From contig NZ_JARHTQ010000023.1 in the NCBI RefSeq assembly GCF_029223525.1, forward strand, positions 1 to 64,000: a stretch of 64,000 bases of DNA. The letters run 5' to 3'. The position numbers and the translations under genes are program-made. Positions 21,563 through 31,955 of the stretch are shown piece by piece. The notes beneath the pieces are model-generated. The model was not told the DNA's origin, searched no databases, and worked only from the letters and a program-made list of their open reading frames with translations. How positions within the stretch are numbered: position 1 is the stretch's first letter; every line of letters starts with the position of its first letter. The DNA comes from Streptantibioticus ferralitis. GTDB taxonomy: Bacteria; Actinomycetota; Actinomycetes; Streptomycetales; Streptomycetaceae.

Positions 21563-21645
21563 GGCGGTGTGCCCGAGCGGCCAAAGGGAGCAGACTGTAA
21601 ATCTGTCGGCTTACGCCTACGCAGGTTCGAACCCTGCCGCCGCCA
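21563..21645 (+). tRNA. tRNA-Tyr (GTA)
   Basis: 83-nt type II tRNA with long variable arm. Acceptor arms GGCGGTG (21563-21569) and CGCCGCC (21638-21644) pair with one G-T; anticodon stem GCAGA/TCTGT encloses CTGTAAA (anticodon GTA); T arm GCAGG-TTCGAAC-CCTGC. CCA is not encoded. A tRNA-Tyr gene is the chromosomal integration site of SLP1 in S. coelicolor. Confidence 0.97.
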
Positions 21646-21694
21646 CATGGAAGAATCGGCCCCTGGCCTGCGGAAACGCGGGCTGGGGGCCGTT
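21633..21694. repeat. Left copy of tRNA 3'-end/terminator direct repeat
   Basis: The last 13 nt of tRNA-Tyr plus the following hairpin region, including CGGCCCC and GGGGGCCG arms. It aligns at roughly three quarters identity with 26321-26382, both beginning CCTGCCGCC and both containing GGAAACGC. Consistent with an old attachment-site duplication. Confidence 0.55.
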
Positions 21695-22010: not shown

Positions 22011-22694
22011 ATGGCTCAGGTCACTCGGCAAGGCGGCAGGGTCGCACGCATCAAGATCCCCACTGCTCCGAAGCTGCTGCCCTCTCTGCGGTCCGCTGAG
22101 ACGCCGAGGGATGATCTTGAAGACGACGCGATCATTAAGGGAGTCAGGTACAGCGGTACCGTCTTCGCGGGGGTAGCCGCCGAAGCTGTCGAGATCGAGG
22201 GGTGCCAGTTCGATGGCACGCGCCTCACCGGCATCGAACTGCGAGGAAGCCAGATCAGCGACTCGGTATTCGACACCTGCGACTTCGCTCAGGCGAGCAT
22301 GCACGATGTGTCCCTGATCCGGTGCAAGGTAAACGGCAGTCGCATCACCGGCTCTTCCTGGAAATCAGCGATGTTCCGCGACGTGCGCTTCCAGGCATGC
22401 CCCAGCGGCCCCGCAATGTACCGAGACTCGAAGCTGTACTCCGTCGTCTTCACCGACTGCAAGATGCATGGGGCGGACTTCCAGCGAGCCTCTATGCACA
22501 ACGTGCGCTTCGAGAACTGCGACCTCACAGGGGCCCAATTCGCCAACGCCGACATGGGCGTCGTCCGATTCGATGGCTGCACGCTCATTGACGTGGGTGG
22601 AGCCGCGAGCCTCAGGGGCGCAACAGTGCAAGGCCCAGGGTCGATGGAGCTGGCCCTGAGCCTGGCACGTGAAGCGGGAATCCTGTTCGAGTAG
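22011..22694 (+). CDS. Pentapeptide-repeat protein
   Basis: About 227 aa. Residues ~45-205 form a quadrilateral beta-helix of loosely conserved A(D/N)LXX-type repeats, seen as successive phrases such as IEGCQFDGTRLTGIELRGSQ, MHGADFQRASMHNVRFENCD and LTGAQFANADMGVVRFDGC. There is no signal peptide or transmembrane segment, so it is presumably cytosolic. Start is uncertain: ATG 22011 (MAQVTRQGG) and ATG 21996 are both in frame with weak ribosome-binding sites; I chose the former. Pentapeptide proteins can mimic DNA (gyrase protection) or act as scaffolds; nothing here decides. First gene of the island, tail-to-tail with the HExxH gene 9 bp away. Confidence 0.8.
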   Translation: MAQVTRQGGRVARIKIPTAPKLLPSLRSAETPRDDLEDDAIIKGVRYSGTVFAGVAAEAVEIEGCQFDGTRLTGIELRGSQISDSVFDTCDFAQASMHDVSLIRCKVNGSRITGSSWKSAMFRDVRFQACPSGPAMYRDSKLYSVVFTDCKMHGADFQRASMHNVRFENCDLTGAQFANADMGVVRFDGCTLIDVGGAASLRGATVQGPGSMELALSLAREAGILFE

Positions 22695-22703
22695 TCAGCC
22701 GCG

Positions 22704-23567
22704 TCAGACGGCGACGGCTGGCTTGTAGCCCGCGTACTCCGGACTGGAGATCGTCTGGGCGAGGTGATCAAAGTCGATGCTCTCGGCGAAACAGCACAGC
22801 TCGTCCAAGAGCATCTGACCGTAGTCGGTGAAGAGCGGGAGCTGCTTCTTGAGGTCTGCGCAGGCGTCCCGCAGCGACTCGGCGTAGAGGTCCACCAGGG
22901 TCTTCACGCCTCGGAAGTGCTGCATGTACATCAGCGGAACCGTGACGATCGCGGCGTGGAATGCCTTGTCGAGCGGCCTCTTCTGGCCGATCTTGACGGC
23001 GGACAGTGCCCGGTACTCGTCCCTCTCCAGTTCGCGGGACGGCAGGGTGAACGTGCCGTACACCATATCGGCGACGAATAGGTTGAGGTGCATGGCCTCA
23101 TGGACCAGGCACTCAGCGAGGTGGGGCACCTGCCAGTCCTCGCCGGGGCTCGTGACCACCAAGCCGGGGATCTGCGATGCGGAGCCGCCCCCGTCTGCTC
23201 CACTGTTGCGGAACACGATGTCGGTGACCAGTAGATCGACCATGCGGCGCAGGTCGGGGCTGAGGCTGTGGATGTGATCCAGGGCTTCGATGGCCTGCCG
23301 GTCCCAGCCCGTTCGCGTCGGCTCGTCAGAGTGACAGGCGCCCGCGAAGATGTGCTCGAAGATGCCCTTGTCCATGCAGTGCTTGGCCCACGCTCCGTCT
23401 TCGTACGAGATGGAAATCCCGTCTCCCTCAACCGGCATGGGGCGGAGCTTCGAGGCGGTCTCCCGGTAGGCCGTGCGCAGGCCGTCAGCATCCGGGTATG
23501 TGCCGGTCACTGCGCGGACCAGCCTCGCGGTGGTCTCGTAGGTGTGGCCGATGTTCATGAGGTGCAC
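22704..23567 (-). CDS. HExxH protein, alpha-KG peptide beta-hydroxylase-like
   Basis: 287-aa soluble protein with metal motif HEAMH at residues 156-160, followed ~37 residues later by RPLDKAFHAAI (RP at 197-198, His 204). That spacing and the RP...H segment recall the HExxH family first noted with FxSxx-COOH peptides, members of which are iron/alpha-ketoglutarate peptide beta-hydroxylases. It has no signal peptide, so a secreted protease is less likely. GTG 23567 has GAAGGAG 9 nt upstream; an ATG at 23558 is the alternative. It lies directly downstream of a 58-aa peptide gene, separated by a strong hairpin, which suggests the peptide is its substrate. Enzymatic class is inferred; a metalloprotease remains possible. 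Confidence 0.65.
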   Translation of the reverse strand: MHLMNIGHTYETTARLVRAVTGTYPDADGLRTAYRETASKLRPMPVEGDGISISYEDGAWAKHCMDKGIFEHIFAGACHSDEPTRTGWDRQAIEALDHIHSLSPDLRRMVDLLVTDIVFRNSGADGGGSASQIPGLVVTSPGEDWQVPHLAECLVHEAMHLNLFVADMVYGTFTLPSRELERDEYRALSAVKIGQKRPLDKAFHAAIVTVPLMYMQHFRGVKTLVDLYAESLRDACADLKKQLPLFTDYGQMLLDELCCFAESIDFDHLAQTISSPEYAGYKPAVAV

Positions 23568-23597: not shown

Positions 23598-23631
23598 GTG
23601 CGCCCGGAACGGAAGCCCGCTCCGGGCGCAC
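23598..23631 (-). terminator. Attenuator hairpin between peptide and HExxH genes
   Basis: Perfect 11-bp stem: GTGCGCCCGGA at 23598-23608 and TCCGGGCGCAC at 23621-23631, with a 12-nt loop. It sits in the 92-bp gap after the peptide stop. Such an element would let the peptide be expressed in excess of the enzyme, a common arrangement in RiPP operons. Confidence 0.75.
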
Positions 23632-23659
23632 TCAGGACATCAGCGCGTCATGCCGCTGG

Positions 23660-23836
23660 TCAGGCGGTCCAGCCGCCCATCATGCAGACGTTGTCGGCCT
23701 CCTGGGACCGCTGCACCCGTGCCTGGACGATGGTCGGCAGTCCTTGCGGGTCCTCCTGGACGGCCGCGACGAGGGTGCTGAGGACGTCGCGGGGCATGGC
23801 CGCCGTCGCGGCTGGCGGGTTCATCGTCGGGTTCAT
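23660..23836 (-). CDS. 58-aa precursor-like peptide
   Basis: Short gene with a very strong ribosome-binding site (AAGGAGG, about 6 nt before ATG 23836). The protein starts MNPTMNPPAATAAMPRDVLS. Its middle (~15-48) is predicted helical and moderately charged, like a leader, and it ends in a distinctive tail DNVCMMGGWTA containing the only Cys and Trp. There is no signal peptide or transmembrane helix. Position immediately upstream of the HExxH gene, hairpin in between, and leader/core-like asymmetry suggest a ribosomally made, post-translationally modified peptide. I do not recognise the family; a small regulatory protein is the alternative. Confidence 0.7.
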   Translation of the reverse strand: MNPTMNPPAATAAMPRDVLSTLVAAVQEDPQGLPTIVQARVQRSQEADNVCMMGGWTA

Positions 23837-24016
23837 CGTGCTCCTCCTTGAGTGGATGAGACGTTCACTGCACTTGCGACCGGTCCCGGCCGATCGACCT
23901 GCCCTTCTTCACGGGGTTGGCAGCTTGGCCGGGACGGGGGCTTGGACCTGCCTCCGGGAGGGTGACCCTTCCGCACGGGGGGAGCCGCGATGAGATCCGC
24001 TCTGGGAGGCAGGGGA
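23837..24016 (-). other. Intergenic region upstream of peptide gene
   Basis: 180 bp between the three-gene operon and the peptide gene, containing the peptide's ribosome-binding site. I see no strong hairpin and no clear -35/-10 pair, so read-through from the operon and an independent promoter both remain possible. Confidence 0.4.
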
Positions 24017-24747: not shown

Positions 24748-24821
24748 AGCACTTGCACAACTGAGGTCACTCAAAGCTTGGTTGACGGGTAGTGAGGCCC
24801 TTCCCATGGAAGAGTGATGTC

Positions 24822-26000
24822 ATGGAGAGCACACCCGCCGCAGGCGAGAACATCGCCGTCCTGCGCAAGGCCCGGGGGATGGGCCAGGCCAAGCTTGCTC
24901 GGGAAGCAGGGATCTCGCTGTCCTACCTGAGCAAGATTGAGGTGGGGACCAGGCCCGCCACCCCACCGGTAGTAGCGGCCATCGCCAAGGCGCTGCACGT
25001 GACTACGGCCCGGATCTACGGACAGCCGTTCATGGGTCCGTCCGAGCAGGCCGACTTGCTCAACGAGCTGCGGAGCGCGGTGCGGCGTAACACTCTGCCT
25101 CGAGAGAACCAGCCTGCCCCGGATGCGCTGGCAGCCTCTCTTCGTAAGGCGGCCGAGCTGCGGGCAGAGACCCGGTACCTGGAGCTGCTGAGGGTGCTGC
25201 CGAAGCTCCTGGGCGAGGTCATCGCAGACGCCATGGCCTCTGATGGGGACGCAACCGCTTGGGGGCAGGTGGCGGACGTATACGGGTGCGCCTATGCCGT
25301 TGCTCACCGGCTTGGACAGCCTGATCTTGCGGACATGATCGTGTCCCGGCAAGTCTGGGCTGCACAACAGACCTGGAACCCGCAGGCCGAGGCTGCGGCA
25401 GCGTGGAACGAGGCCGGGACCTATCAGAGCGCAGGGCAGTACGAAGACGGCTTGGCGATCGTTGAGCGGGCCATCGTGAAGTTCGAGCAAGCGCCGACTG
25501 AGGGCCTAGCCAAGCTCGTCCCTCTGGGTTCTCTCCACCTCCGGGGCGTGGTCCTGGCCTCTCGGAACAAGGACGCGCGTGCCACCGAAGACCACCTCCG
25601 GCGTGCCCGGATCCTGGCGGACCAAATGACCAGAGACGTACTTCAGCACAACCTGACTTTCGGGGCCGGAAACACGGCCCTGTACGAGCTGGCGGCCCAC
25701 GTCGAGCTGGGCAAGCCGGACAAAGCTGCCCAGATGTCCGCCCCTCTGATCACTGAAGCGCCAGCGGGACTCAAGCCGAACCGTATCGGTCGGCTTTACA
25801 TCGACGTTGCCCGAGCCCGCCTGGCCGTCAAGGACTTGACCGGGGCCGAGGAGGCGCTGAAAGCGGCTTTCGCCGTAGCTCCACAGATGACAGAGATCCA
25901 CCCGATGAGCCGGGAAGTGCTCAGGGTCCTATTCGTGCTCCACCAGAGGACCCGACCTGATCTCATGTGGATGGCCAAGCGTTCCGGACTGGTCTCCTAG
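24822..26000 (+). CDS. XRE-family regulator with C-terminal TPR domain
   Basis: 392 aa. Residues ~8-62 form a Cro/C1-type helix-turn-helix (GQAKLAREAGISLSYLSKIE). From ~130 onward alternating helices such as AAAWNEAGTYQSAGQYEDGL and NLTFGAGNTALYELAAHVEL resemble tetratricopeptide repeats. This layout resembles RRNPP-type peptide-responsive regulators and the many Streptomyces HTH-TPR proteins. Start ATG 24822 has GGAAGAG upstream; an in-frame start at 24792 lacks support. Divergent from the three-gene operon, with repeated motifs between. Sensing the linked peptide is an attractive but untested idea. Confidence 0.8.
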   Translation: MESTPAAGENIAVLRKARGMGQAKLAREAGISLSYLSKIEVGTRPATPPVVAAIAKALHVTTARIYGQPFMGPSEQADLLNELRSAVRRNTLPRENQPAPDALAASLRKAAELRAETRYLELLRVLPKLLGEVIADAMASDGDATAWGQVADVYGCAYAVAHRLGQPDLADMIVSRQVWAAQQTWNPQAEAAAAWNEAGTYQSAGQYEDGLAIVERAIVKFEQAPTEGLAKLVPLGSLHLRGVVLASRNKDARATEDHLRRARILADQMTRDVLQHNLTFGAGNTALYELAAHVELGKPDKAAQMSAPLITEAPAGLKPNRIGRLYIDVARARLAVKDLTGAEEALKAAFAVAPQMTEIHPMSREVLRVLFVLHQRTRPDLMWMAKRSGLVS

Positions 26001-27917: not shown

Positions 27918-30900
27918 TCACTGGCCGCATGGCGGCTCGTACTGCAGATTGGGCAGGTACTGGTGCCATACCTCCGGCGTCAGGACGCCCCCGGTGACCG
28001 AGCAGATGTGACTGGTCGCCTGGTCGATGTCCAGGTTCCACAGCCGCACGGTGTCGGCACCGCTCGACACCCCGAGCAGATTGCCCTTGGGGCTGAACGA
28101 CAGGAAATGGCCGATCTTGGCGTTGGGGCTGATCGACTGGCCGATGGCCCCGGCCTCGGACGGATGCGAGACGTTCCAGAGCTGGACCGTGTCATCGTTG
28201 CCTCCGCTGGCCAGCGTGCGGCCGTCCGGACTGTACGTCAGCGACGCCACCGATTCGGTGCGGCCGGTGAGCGGGCTGCCCAGCGGGGTCGCCCGTTGCG
28301 GCTGGGTGACGTCCCACAGCCGGATGGTGTCGTCGGAACTGCCGCTGGCCAGCGTGTGGCCGTCCGGGCTGTACGCGAGCGTGTCGACCGAGCCCGTGTG
28401 ACCGGTGAGCGGTGCGCCGAGCGGGGTGGCCCGTTGCGGCTGGGTGACGTTCCACAGCCGGATGGTGTCGTCGGAGCTGCCGCTGGCCAGGGTGCGGCCG
28501 TCCGGGCTGAAGACCAGGACGTCGATGTACCCCGTGTGACCGGTGAGCGGTGCGCCGAGTGGTGCCGGGTGGGCCGGGTCGGCGATGTTCCACAACTGGA
28601 TCGTGCGGTCGTCGTGCCCGGTCGCCAGAACGCGCCCGTCGGGGCTGAAGGCCATCGCGTACGAGCCCGCGTAGCGGGTTTGCAGCGTGAGTGGCGGCCC
28701 GTAGGGGGCGGGGCGGGTCGGGTCGGTGACGTTCCACAGCCGGATCGTGTTGCTTCCGGTCCGTATCGCGAGCGTGCGGCCGTCGGGTGAGAACAGCAAC
28801 GGCCACTCCCGCGGGCCGGGCACCCCGGCCGGGAACGGCCTGCCGAGCGGTGCGGGTACGGACGGCCGGGTCACGTCCCACAGCTGGACGGTGTTGTCCC
28901 TCGCGGTCGTCGCCAGAACGCGCCCGTCGGGGCGGAACGCGCCGAGCTCACCGAGCACGTCGGACGTCGGTATCGACCACAGCCGGACCTTGCTGTCACC
29001 GCTTCCGGTGGCGAGCGTGTGCCCGTCGGGGCGGAAGCCCACGGCATAGACCTCACCGCTGCTGCCCGCGAGCGGCTGGCCGACCTCTGCCGCGTCGGCC
29101 GGATGGCTGACGTTCCAAAGGCTGGCCGTGCTGTCCGCGCTCCCGGCGGCGAGCATCGCTCCGTCGGGGCTGAAGGCCACCGACCACACGGGACCGGTGT
29201 GGCCGATGAGCGGTGCGCCGATCGGCGTCGCGTGACTCGGGGTGGCCACGTTCCACAGCCGGATGGTGTCGTCCGCGCTGCCGCTGGCGAGGGTCTGGCC
29301 ACTGGGGCTGAAGGCCACGGAGTGCACCGTGTGGGTGTGGCCGGCCAGTGGTTCGCCCAGCGGCTCCGGGTGAGCCGGGTCCGCGACGTTCCACAGCATG
29401 ATCGTGTTGTCGTCACCACCCGCCGCGAGGGTTCGCCCGTCCGGGCTGAACGCAACGGAGCGGACGGCCGCGGTGTGCCCGGTCAGCGCGCCGAGCGACT
29501 GCGGTCGCCGTGGATCGCGGACGTCCCACAGGCGGACGGTGTGGTCTTCCTGGGCGGCCGCCAGGGTGTGGCCGTCCGGGCTGAACGCGACGAGGTAGAT
29601 GGTGCCGCCGTGTGCGGTCAGCGGCGCCCCCGGTGACAGCGGGTGGCCGGGGTCCGTCACGTCCCACAGCCGGATGGTCCCGTCGTCCGAAGCGCTGGCC
29701 AGGGTGCGGCCGTTCGGGCTGAAGACCGAGGAGCTCACCCAACTGCTGTGCCCGGTGAGCGGCTTGCCCAGCGGTATGGGTCGGCCGGGGTCCGTCACGT
29801 CCCACAGCCGGACGGTCCGGTCGTAGCTGGCGGTGGCCAGGGTGCGTCCGTCGGGGCTGAACGAGGTGAGGTACACGGCGCCGGTGTGGCCGACGAGTGG
29901 CGTCGCCAGGGGCGCGCTCTCGGTTGATATCAGGCGGTTGTTGACGCTCTCGTCGTCGGGCCTCAGCCGGTGCGCCACCATGTCGAGTTGGGCCGACAGC
30001 GATGGATCCGTGTACTGCACACGATCGGCTTCGGCGACGACCTGCCCGAACACGGCCTCGTCCCGCTGCTGGCCCGCGATCACCGCCGACACGACGGCGA
30101 GCACCGCGAAGACCACCAGCGCTGACACCGCGGCCCGGGCGAGCCACACGGTCCGCCTGCGCAGTCGGGCGGAAGCGGCCAGGAACTCCGCCACCCCGCG
30201 GGTCAGGAAGGAGCCCCCGACGGATTCCGCCCAGTTGTGGGCCGCGTCCAGACGGCTGCCCCGGTACAGCAACGACGCGTCGCGGCCGGAGCCGTCCCAG
30301 GCCCTGCTGTCCTCTTCCAACTGCTGCCGCAGCAGATTGCCGTTGCGGTCCTCGTCGAGCCAGTCGCGCAGCCGCGGCCAGGCGTGCAGCAGCGCCTCAT
30401 GGGTGATCTCCACCGATTCCGCGTCCAACGTGACCAACCGGGCGCGGACCAGAGCTTCGAGGGATTCGTCCGTCTTGCCGGGATCGCTTGACTCGGCGGC
30501 CAGTTGGCGCCGGGTGCCCCGCCGGCGGGTGGCCTGGGTGTCCTCGCCCAGCCGGACCAGCCTGAGCAGCAGCAGCCTCGCCGCGGTGCGTCCGGCCGGA
30601 TCGAGCCCGGACCAGGCCCGCTCGGCGGTCGCCGCCACGGCTCCCTGGATCCCGCCGGCGGCGCGGTAACCGGACAGCGTCAGCCTGCCTGCCTTGCGCC
30701 GCTGCCAGGTGGCGAGCAGGGCGTGCGAGAGAAGCGGCAGCACCCCGGCGTCGTGCGCGCCTCGGGGCCCTTCGAACCGCACCCGTCCGTCAGCGCTCAC
30801 CTCCCTGACGATCAGCTCGGCCAGCCCGGGCTCCAACTCCAGTCCGACGGCCTTGGCCGGGCCGGTCACCGCTTCCCGTAGCTCCGCGGTGGTCAGCGGC

Positions 30901-31955
30901 CCGAGCACCATGTGCCGGTGCTGCAACGCGTCGGCCAGCTCCGGATAGCCGAGACACCGTTCGTAGAAGTCGGCGCGTATCCCCAGGACGACCAGCACGG
31001 GGGCGATCTCGTCGGGATGTTCCGGCGAACACGCCGCATGGAGCAGTTGGATGAACGTCTGCCTGCTCGGCTCGTCACGGCAGAGAGTGAACGTTTCCTC
31101 GAACTGATCCACGATGAGGACCGGTCGGGACCCCGAAGACGTCTCGCGCCGCGCCCACGCCGTGACCGACTCCTTCACCCGGTGTGCGAACCGCGCGGTG
31201 TCCGGCTCCGCCGCCTGCGATTGCCGCAGGGTCGCCACGGCGTCGGCCAGGTCCGGGATCCGGCCGGTCAACTCCGCCACGGGGTCGCCGCCCGGCACCA
31301 TCAGCAGCACCGGACCCGTCGCGTGACCCTCGTCGTTCAGCGCTCCGTTGTGCAACGCCGGGATCAGCCCGGCCTTCAGCAGGGAGGACTTTCCGGCTCC
31401 GGACGCGCCCACGAGCATCACCAGGCCGCCGGTTTCCCGGGACGCGCGCAACTGCGTCACGAAGGAGTCCGTGCTGCGTTCCCGGCCGAAGAACCACCTC
31501 GCGTCCTCCTCGCGGAACGAGGCGAGTCCCCGGTACGGGCAAACGCTCACGTCGGGCGGCAGTTGGGCGGGGGTGCGGTCTTCCTCGGCGGTGACCGTCG
31601 CGGCGCGGTCGCCGACCGGGTTGGCAACCGCCAGCTCCCACAGGCTCTGCCACTGGGCCAGGTCGTACAGGCCCGCGCTGACGGACGTGGGCCGCTCGCG
31701 CCGGGCCATCGGTATGAGGACCTGCAGCACGGCCGCCAGGGCGGCGAACTGGGCGGGCACGTTCCTGGCCCGCCGCCAGTCGCTGATCCGCTGGGCGGAC
31801 ACCTGGACGGGCCGCCCTCGTTCGTCGATCCGCTGAAGCCGGCCGACCGCCTCCGCCACCCGCTTCAACGGTGGGTTTCCGGCCTCCTTGTACAGCAGCG
31901 CGAGCTGTTCCGCGAAGGCCGTGCGTGGTTCCGAACCGGGACCAAAGCTTTCCAC
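27918..31955 (-). CDS. HTH-STAND NTPase with 14 WD40 repeats
   Basis: 1345 aa. Residues ~10-80 form an N-terminal HTH-like domain (VSAQRISDWRRARNVPAQF). A STAND/AAA NTPase follows, with P-loop GASGAGKSS at ~183-191 and Walker B VLIVDQFEE at ~275. One transmembrane helix lies near 610-635 (VSALVVFAVLAVVSAVIAG). After it come 14 WD40 repeats, each ending in LWDV/LWNV-type motifs, fitting two seven-blade propellers. A Cys-containing tail ends PPCGQ. GTG start with GGAAGG upstream. The architecture matches nSTAND1-type conflict or signalling proteins. Several adjacent blades are nearly identical in DNA, indicating recent blade duplication. Confidence 0.9.
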   Translation of the reverse strand: MESFGPGSEPRTAFAEQLALLYKEAGNPPLKRVAEAVGRLQRIDERGRPVQVSAQRISDWRRARNVPAQFAALAAVLQVLIPMARRERPTSVSAGLYDLAQWQSLWELAVANPVGDRAATVTAEEDRTPAQLPPDVSVCPYRGLASFREEDARWFFGRERSTDSFVTQLRASRETGGLVMLVGASGAGKSSLLKAGLIPALHNGALNDEGHATGPVLLMVPGGDPVAELTGRIPDLADAVATLRQSQAAEPDTARFAHRVKESVTAWARRETSSGSRPVLIVDQFEETFTLCRDEPSRQTFIQLLHAACSPEHPDEIAPVLVVLGIRADFYERCLGYPELADALQHRHMVLGPLTTAELREAVTGPAKAVGLELEPGLAELIVREVSADGRVRFEGPRGAHDAGVLPLLSHALLATWQRRKAGRLTLSGYRAAGGIQGAVAATAERAWSGLDPAGRTAARLLLLRLVRLGEDTQATRRRGTRRQLAAESSDPGKTDESLEALVRARLVTLDAESVEITHEALLHAWPRLRDWLDEDRNGNLLRQQLEEDSRAWDGSGRDASLLYRGSRLDAAHNWAESVGGSFLTRGVAEFLAASARLRRRTVWLARAAVSALVVFAVLAVVSAVIAGQQRDEAVFGQVVAEADRVQYTDPSLSAQLDMVAHRLRPDDESVNNRLISTESAPLATPLVGHTGAVYLTSFSPDGRTLATASYDRTVRLWDVTDPGRPIPLGKPLTGHSSWVSSSVFSPNGRTLASASDDGTIRLWDVTDPGHPLSPGAPLTAHGGTIYLVAFSPDGHTLAAAQEDHTVRLWDVRDPRRPQSLGALTGHTAAVRSVAFSPDGRTLAAGGDDNTIMLWNVADPAHPEPLGEPLAGHTHTVHSVAFSPSGQTLASGSADDTIRLWNVATPSHATPIGAPLIGHTGPVWSVAFSPDGAMLAAGSADSTASLWNVSHPADAAEVGQPLAGSSGEVYAVGFRPDGHTLATGSGDSKVRLWSIPTSDVLGELGAFRPDGRVLATTARDNTVQLWDVTRPSVPAPLGRPFPAGVPGPREWPLLFSPDGRTLAIRTGSNTIRLWNVTDPTRPAPYGPPLTLQTRYAGSYAMAFSPDGRVLATGHDDRTIQLWNIADPAHPAPLGAPLTGHTGYIDVLVFSPDGRTLASGSSDDTIRLWNVTQPQRATPLGAPLTGHTGSVDTLAYSPDGHTLASGSSDDTIRLWDVTQPQRATPLGSPLTGRTESVASLTYSPDGRTLASGGNDDTVQLWNVSHPSEAGAIGQSISPNAKIGHFLSFSPKGNLLGVSSGADTVRLWNLDIDQATSHICSVTGGVLTPEVWHQYLPNLQYEPPCGQ

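Follow-up and report, generated by a model that had tools for sequence, protein, structure and literature searches.

Enzymes of the aKG-HExxH family hydroxylate His, Asp, Phe, Gln and Pro (PMC13060819; this and the other papers cited by PMC number were available in part and are quoted to that extent). BipH/BpmH of biphenomycin and PesO of nitrilobacillin are likewise aKG-HExxH hydroxylases acting on a RiPP, each supplying one step of a longer pathway (PMC12707348, PMC12257519, PMC13060819). PflC and PosC, stand-alone enzymes of the Pseudomonas pfl and pos clusters, also perform an oxidative backbone cleavage ahead of the C-terminal sequence ARMD, in which Gly partly replaces Ala (PMC12636437). 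ChlBH, the radical-SAM-fused representative (8s5f), acts on a precursor composed of leader and core (PMC12636437). The locus described here lies in the window, a stretch of 64,000 nucleotides, and comprises the genes of a 58-aa peptide, an HExxH enzyme and a pentapeptide-repeat protein (PRP).

McbG is the PRP immunity protein of microcin B17, whose azole chemistry is carried out by other enzymes and which, unlike the present cassette, has dedicated export. Sublancin, encoded on prophage SPbeta, resembles the proposed cassette in placing a RiPP and its immunity gene on a temperate phage, but it is an S-glycosylated glycocin made by other enzymes. In joining a RiPP gyrase poison (PMC10886550) to a PRP immunity protein, microcin B17 with McbG is likened by description, not by sequence, to the reading proposed for our locus. 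AlbG confers self-resistance to the gyrase poison albicidin, and AlbG, EfsQnr, MfpA and QnrB1 share with the modelled PRP a beta-helix with a C-terminal helix (PMC8145042); the PRP nevertheless forms a subfamily of its own, 14–21% identical in the fold alignments and far below the Qnr cut-off.

With ChlBH the locus has in common the predicted enzyme family and fold and a leader–core precursor, but the enzyme stands alone, the cassette contains no radical SAM gene and the core is unrelated. As in PflC and PosC, the enzyme is a stand-alone protein and a small residue (Ala, Gly) opens the C-terminal tetrapeptide, which is ARMD in those systems and GWT followed by Ala, Ser or Asn in most of ours; as far as the pfl and pos clusters are described in the available text, the cassette differs from them in having no recurring MNIO-nitroreductase, GNAT or transporter and no Gln run, and in the added PRP (PMC12636437). 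In contrast to the biphenomycin and nitrilobacillin pathways, as described in the available text, the hydroxylase is here the sole recurring enzyme. With one precursor, one oxygenase and one PRP, the cassette is a putative RiPP system of a new type that belongs to the established aKG-HExxH group. In the literature searched, which mostly lacks subscription papers, neither the string MMGGW nor the combination of HExxH, pentapeptide repeat and precursor peptide was found in any paper.

Organisation of the locus

The features of the window are as follows.

21563–21646, + strand: tRNA-Tyr gene adjoining the cassette; possible old integration site
22011–22694, + strand: 227-aa PRP, convergent with the enzyme; proposed immunity protein
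22704–23567, − strand: gene of the predicted stand-alone 287-aa aKG-HExxH peptide hydroxylase, GTG start; HEAMH at 23088–23102
23598–23631, − strand: hairpin between the precursor and enzyme genes
23660–23836, − strand: precursor gene, 58 aa (leader about 1–48, core about 49–58)
23666–23683, − strand: constant core motif MMGGWT (ATGATGGGCGGCTGGACC)
23843–23849, − strand: RBS AAGGAGG, 6 nt ahead of the precursor ATG (direct sequence reading)

The PRP and enzyme genes face each other, with stop codons 9 bp apart. A sequence-only reading of this DNA had described a 58-aa ORF with AAGGAGG and a DNVCMMGGWTA end, followed by a hairpin and then the HExxH gene, and the coordinates confirm all of these elements. 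The span that it gave to the peptide (23598–23836) takes in the hairpin as well, the ORF itself occupying 23660–23836. It had read the locus as a RiPP precursor with its modifying enzyme; this is supported, and the third constant gene, that of the convergent PRP, was missed.

The start region of the precursor is doubled by a 12-bp tandem repeat (23816–23839), giving MNPTMNP with two in-frame ATGs (Met1 and Met5). In several loci (among them the window, L010, L013, L014 and L067; by eye) a second in-frame TGA lies four codons past the precursor stop; L071 is without it and has an open tail ending in TDAAPAAE instead. About 1 kb upstream of the precursor, a divergent gene (24792–26000) encodes an XRE-type helix-turn-helix regulator with weak TPR matches; HTH_31 proteins also occur beside other copies, making up 4 of the 57 flank proteins scanned. 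Further genes flanking the cassette in the window encode a GntR regulator, a protease, a kinase and a 1345-aa nSTAND1 NTPase with WD40 repeats (27918–31955), possibly a defence or signalling protein. A promoter scan found nothing, and the tRNA was the sole match in an Rfam scan.

The hairpin has 15-nt arms that are 93% complementary. The perfect 11-bp stem noted earlier forms its base, but the stem is longer, all 15 positions pairing in the fold with one G-U. It is present in all 18 intact Streptomycetaceae cassettes, in Nocardia and in the six viral loci with MMGGWT (6/6), is missing in G004 and G018, and has a shorter stem in Streptomyces sp. NBC_00690. In an alignment of 18 sequences, with L046 outside it, 12 of the 15 consensus pairs have at least one change on both sides; to judge by these sequences, compensatory change maintains the hairpin. 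There is no T-run at the hairpin, which may act as an attenuator or as an mRNA-stabilising stem.

The precursor peptide

Homologues of the 58-aa peptide (E ≤ 0.001; 42–55% identity) occur in 7 of 393 other sampled genomes of the family, or 8 of 394 with its own, and the HExxH gene lies directly downstream in 8/8. The proposal of a precursor beside its modifying enzyme, to which homologues mostly without an HExxH gene had been named as the contrary outcome, is supported by this count and by the profile and fold of the enzyme. When named genomes were scanned for CMMGGWT, 10 loci came up, in Streptomyces, Actinacidiphila and one Streptomycetaceae MAG, five of them judged to lie on contigs already among other matches. 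The Nocardia precursor, searched against plasmids, matched nothing but the record from which it came. Over the phylum sample the precursor profile matches 21 of 396 genomes at E ≤ 0.1; besides the window, the one match inspected (L017, in G063) is a true relative, and the rest, weaker than E 1e-4, were taken as chance. An enzyme search over 394 class genomes found only G000 and G063. The genome searches scored limited candidates per genome (e.g. 6 or 7), and their negative results extend no further than these candidates.

All of 19 loci preserve the reading frame, the RBS and the core, with peptide lengths of 44–58 aa. The short precursor gene adjoins that of the predicted modifying enzyme, as is expected of a RiPP, in 25/25 intact MMGGWT loci. 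The Ka/Ks check proposed in the sequence-only reading came out divided: of 20 pairs, 16 have pN/pS below 1, but in one close group each of the three pairs exceeds 1, so that this coding test is weak by itself.

MMGGWT is invariant in the 26 collected precursors (26/26), a count that is partly by construction, since the string itself served to collect them and one scan demanded CMMGGWT. Asn is found at position −3 in 22/26, and MM is preceded by C, S, V, A or Q. A fairer count comes from loci found from the enzyme alone, of which 12/15 have MMGGWT. These are six family genomes (G004, G018, G116, G136, G198 and G204; five with MMGGWT), which neither the precursor search nor the precursor profile had matched, seven viral contigs (six with MMGGWT) and two plasmid-collection records (one with MMGGWT). 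Left out of the 15 are G063 (first found with the precursor profile; has MMGGWT), G026 (enzyme remnants only), G238 (63 bits, another HExxH family), four plasmid-collection matches at 26–34% identity and a match in phage SPbetaL1.

The leaders have a median identity of 27% over 30 residues beside the constant core. In G004 the enzyme is intact and the leader can be recognised (E 1.6e-4), but the core is a different one, and the prophage-type contig L121 keeps enzyme, PRP and leader with the core lost; leader and core evolve separately, as they do in RiPPs. In Streptomyces sp. NBC_00690 both the HExxH motif (RQAVH) and the core are lost. The idea that the C-terminal ~11 residues vary independently of the leader was rejected: the leaders have diverged, and the C-terminus, with its constant MMGGWT, is the most conserved part. 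The same reading had set the locus apart from the FxSxx-COOH systems, and rightly so. An FxSxx-COOH/FxsB system was rejected, the precursor tails being GWTA/S/N and others with no FxSxx among them, and the enzyme having no fused radical SAM domain.

In some loci with an intact enzyme, Asn −3 is replaced by Glu or His, and the modified residue is therefore expected inside MMGGWT. The beta-carbon of Trp is our slightly preferred candidate and the alpha-carbon of a Gly a nearly equal second, neither of the two being more likely than not. Both core Gly codons are GGC in 19/19 loci, compared with 63% GGC in the invariant Gly columns of the enzyme and 41% in those of the PRP; in the enlarged set the second is GGC in 26/26 loci and the first in 24/26. 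A fixed DNA or RNA element at the core codons (window 23666–23683) is not claimed, the idea having been weakened by viral loci with GGT and ACG.

The HExxH enzyme

The enzyme scores 75.2 bits against TIGR04267 (aKG-HExxH peptide beta-hydroxylase; cut-off 40) and is the only protein of its genome to match. Over its 287 residues it matches only the HExxH model, with no Pfam domain and no fused radical SAM. H156, E157 and H160 are invariant in 13/13 aligned enzymes. An AlphaFold model built with 13 sequences (pLDDT 90.2) has ChlB-HExxH (8s5f) as its nearest fold (Z 21.2, rmsd 2.9, 233 residues aligned), followed by SjiH (Z 19.2, rmsd 4.0, 240 aligned); the next match falls to Z 7.0, and LTA4-hydrolase and a fungal zinc peptidase reach Z 5.8 or less. 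By profile and fold the protein is predicted to be an aKG-HExxH peptide hydroxylase.

Two more distant loci were seen. On a plasmid of Streptomyces sp. NBC_00690 (L113, 4781–7142), an enzyme relative without HExxH and a decayed core are followed by a radical SAM gene; we propose that the relative is a pseudo-enzyme or a reused partner. The SPbeta-like Bacillus phage SPbetaL1 (L114, 3211–4295) carries a relative of the HExxH enzyme at 25.7% identity, immediately preceded by a 66-aa ORF; the two may be a further RiPP pair on a phage.

The pentapeptide-repeat protein

Within seven genes of the enzyme, the PRP is the sole neighbour common to every locus where the gene caller found the enzyme; in L012/L039, where the caller missed the enzyme, the PRP was found separately. 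It lies beside the enzyme and faces it in 25/25 intact MMGGWT cassettes, comprising 18/18 from Streptomycetaceae (stops −4 to 21 bp apart), one from Nocardia (N. farcinica) and six from viruses, and it faces the enzyme in 7/7 viral contigs. Enzyme and PRP distance matrices correlate with r 0.795, and 0/5000 permutations reach as high. Our confidence in the pairing within the cassette is very high.

A full-length PRP of the subfamily (> 340 bits) occurs in 19/394 family genomes, 13 of which have an intact enzyme with MMGGWT and six no intact enzyme; fragments are found in five more. Among the six, enzyme remnants persist in G026 and G130, none was found in G052, G200 and G196, and G035 lies at a contig edge, so that enzyme loss counts for five PRPs, not six. 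Conversely, an intact enzyme with MMGGWT and no PRP was found in 0 genomes of the 394. Retention of the PRP without the enzyme, with the reverse not seen, is the pattern predicted for an immunity gene, and the PRP is probably an immunity or antitoxin protein. A PRP of the subfamily is absent from the fetched 11–17 kb at three loci only: G018 (precursor, truncated enzyme), NBC_00690 (RQAVH) and G004 (other core). Distant PRPs are common (253/394 family genomes at E ≤ 1e-15), with a clear score gap between them and the subfamily, below which the next comparable-span match reaches 94 bits. A PRP search of a phage collection gave seven records, none of which exceeds about 24% identity.

The single-chain model of the PRP (pLDDT 82.5) is a right-handed beta-helix with a C-terminal helix at 211–221. 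Its nearest folds are EfsQnr (Z 26.1), PENT, a Clostridium PRP of unproven function (25.4), AlbG (22.3) and MfpA (21.3), with designed solenoids at about 20 and HetL at 19.7 below them; a profile search likewise ranked EfsQnr and AlbG first. As HetL and the designed solenoids score near MfpA, the fold is no proof of gyrase action, and the fold ranks give no clear separation of gyrase PRPs from HetL. Against the Qnr model NF033086 the protein scores 59.4 bits (cut-off 240) and is not a Qnr by NCBIfam. The net charge of 19 PRPs is −1 to −5; a stronger negative charge would be expected of a DNA mimic. That the PRP protects gyrase is a reasoned guess by analogy, to which we give even odds.

Distribution and phage carriage

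The enzyme occurs on seven IMG/VR contigs, with the full set or a decayed version of it. The cassette of L125 (= L118) has a terminase gene on one side and a portal gene on the other, that of L129 (= L122) precedes both of these genes, and in L130 (= L123) a portal gene is located about 6 kb away. L128 (= L121, core lost) has integrase and antirepressor genes; L127 (= L120) has genes for a phage-type DNA polymerase, thymidylate synthase and ribonucleotide reductase, and L124 (= L117) a weak primase match only. The scan for phage genes covered these six of the seven contigs, L126 (= L119) being the other. Because some of the viral contigs could be prophage predictions that include host sequence at their flanks, the firm cases are L125 and L129.

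Around 15 chromosomal loci (a set that does not include the window, L040 and L044), no terminase, portal or integrase is found among the families listed (101/119 listed flank proteins scanned; 25/30 families listed for a first set of loci, all 21 for a second). Phage-like matches in these flanks are an exonuclease and a tail fiber with two members each, several endolysin families with one each, a minor tail protein with lysin activity once in each set, and one anti-restriction protein. A Pfam scan of the first set only (57 proteins) gave one ABC transporter among the families listed, and the called neighbours of the enzyme include no recurrent gene for an exporter or a protease. Direct att repeats are not evident around the window copy. 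A tRNA-Ser gene adjoins the cassette of L011 (9426–9521), and a T-loop-like sequence lies upstream of four precursors (L011–L014); tRNA genes or T-loop-like remnants near five copies suggest past integration. The best reading is that the cassette was moved partly by phages.

Discussion

We read the locus as a minimal RiPP toxin–immunity cassette with one oxygenase and a Qnr/AlbG-like immunity protein, at a probability of about 0.6. The precursor would consist of a leader followed by a C-terminal core that is constant and based on MMGGWT. The aKG/Fe(II) HExxH oxygenase would bind the leader and oxidise the core, most likely by hydroxylating a constant residue, either at the Trp beta-carbon or at the Gly alpha-carbon with subsequent backbone cleavage to an amide. 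Trimming of the leader would fall to host peptidases, because the cassette has no recurrent companion gene for a protease or an exporter. The product would be a toxin whose likeliest target is DNA gyrase or topoisomerase IV, with an evenly balanced chance for gyrase, and the convergent PRP would protect the producer. The spacer hairpin would keep precursor mRNA above enzyme mRNA. Accessory regions and phages would carry the cassette from one member of the Streptomycetaceae (and Nocardia) to another. Several observations count against a toxin cassette. The missing recurrent exporter or protease is odd for a secreted bacteriocin, and a hardly varying core is unusual for bacteriocins. L121 keeps enzyme and PRP though its core is lost, the net charge of the PRP is weak for a DNA mimic and its score is far from the Qnr cut-off, the exceptions without a PRP are three loci only, and pN/pS is not uniformly low.

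As no exporter or protease recurs, we keep both a secreted bacteriocin and an intracellular role under consideration. The same three parts could form an addiction or abortive-infection module in which the unexported peptide hits gyrase and the PRP is the antitoxin, carried by prophages and islands for their own maintenance or to block competing phages; we think this unlikely. It agrees with the single ABC transporter among the Pfam families listed for the 57 flank proteins, with viral contigs carrying the cassette next to phage genes, with a PRP that is kept alone and never lost alone among intact MMGGWT cassettes, and with the closely spaced convergent stops. There is, however, no sign of an unstable antitoxin, the PRP and toxin genes are convergent and do not form an operon, and RiPP clusters without an exporter exist. 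As far as described in the available text, precedents for such a module are phage peptides that inhibit host gyrase (PMC10886550), one of which is about 50 aa long, and intracellular antiphage lanthipeptides from Actinomycetota (PMC12360287).

The three parts might also serve signalling or regulation, with a modified peptide whose core is kept fixed by the receptor that reads it and with the PRP as scaffold, receptor or regulator, which we consider improbable. The fold match of the PRP to HetL is of interest in this respect, as HetL, a PRP, acts in the PatS peptide morphogen system; PMC7476756 places HetL in one system with PatS and deals with immunity to self-inhibition. The core is identical in all collected precursors, with the reservation on their collection given above. 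Fixed cores are common among peptide signals, but orphan PRPs occur without enzyme or peptide, the spread is patchy, and the best PRP matches are mostly gyrase-linked. Very improbable is an HExxH protein that is a zinc metallopeptidase and does no more than cut the peptide (or the PRP). In its favour, zincins share the HExxH motif and PflC is able to hydrolyse a leaderless substrate (PMC12636437), but the TIGR04267 match, the ChlB-HExxH fold and the low scores of LTA4-hydrolase and the fungal zinc peptidase stand against it. A chance ORF beside a conserved RNA (hairpin or 5′ region) would accord with the nearly fixed core codons and the uneven pN/pS, but has next to no probability given that all collected loci preserve frame, RBS, leader pattern and stop, and that some of them have GGT and ACG/ACT variants.

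The aKG-HExxH family is young and few of its substrates are known; the pair described here offers one enzyme and one constant core and is suited to reconstitution. The PRP partner supplies a target hypothesis, gyrase, ahead of any chemistry, and carriage by phages raises the question of why viruses would move a modified-peptide toxin plus its antidote. If the toxin–immunity cassette is the true reading, it would link Qnr-like proteins to immunity against a ribosomal peptide. If instead the cassette is a phage-borne addiction or abortive-infection module, it would be a RiPP working as a toxin–antitoxin system, with a single iron oxygenase arming the MMGGWT warhead of an intracellular peptide, and would point to peptide toxins as the origin of some Qnr-like genes.
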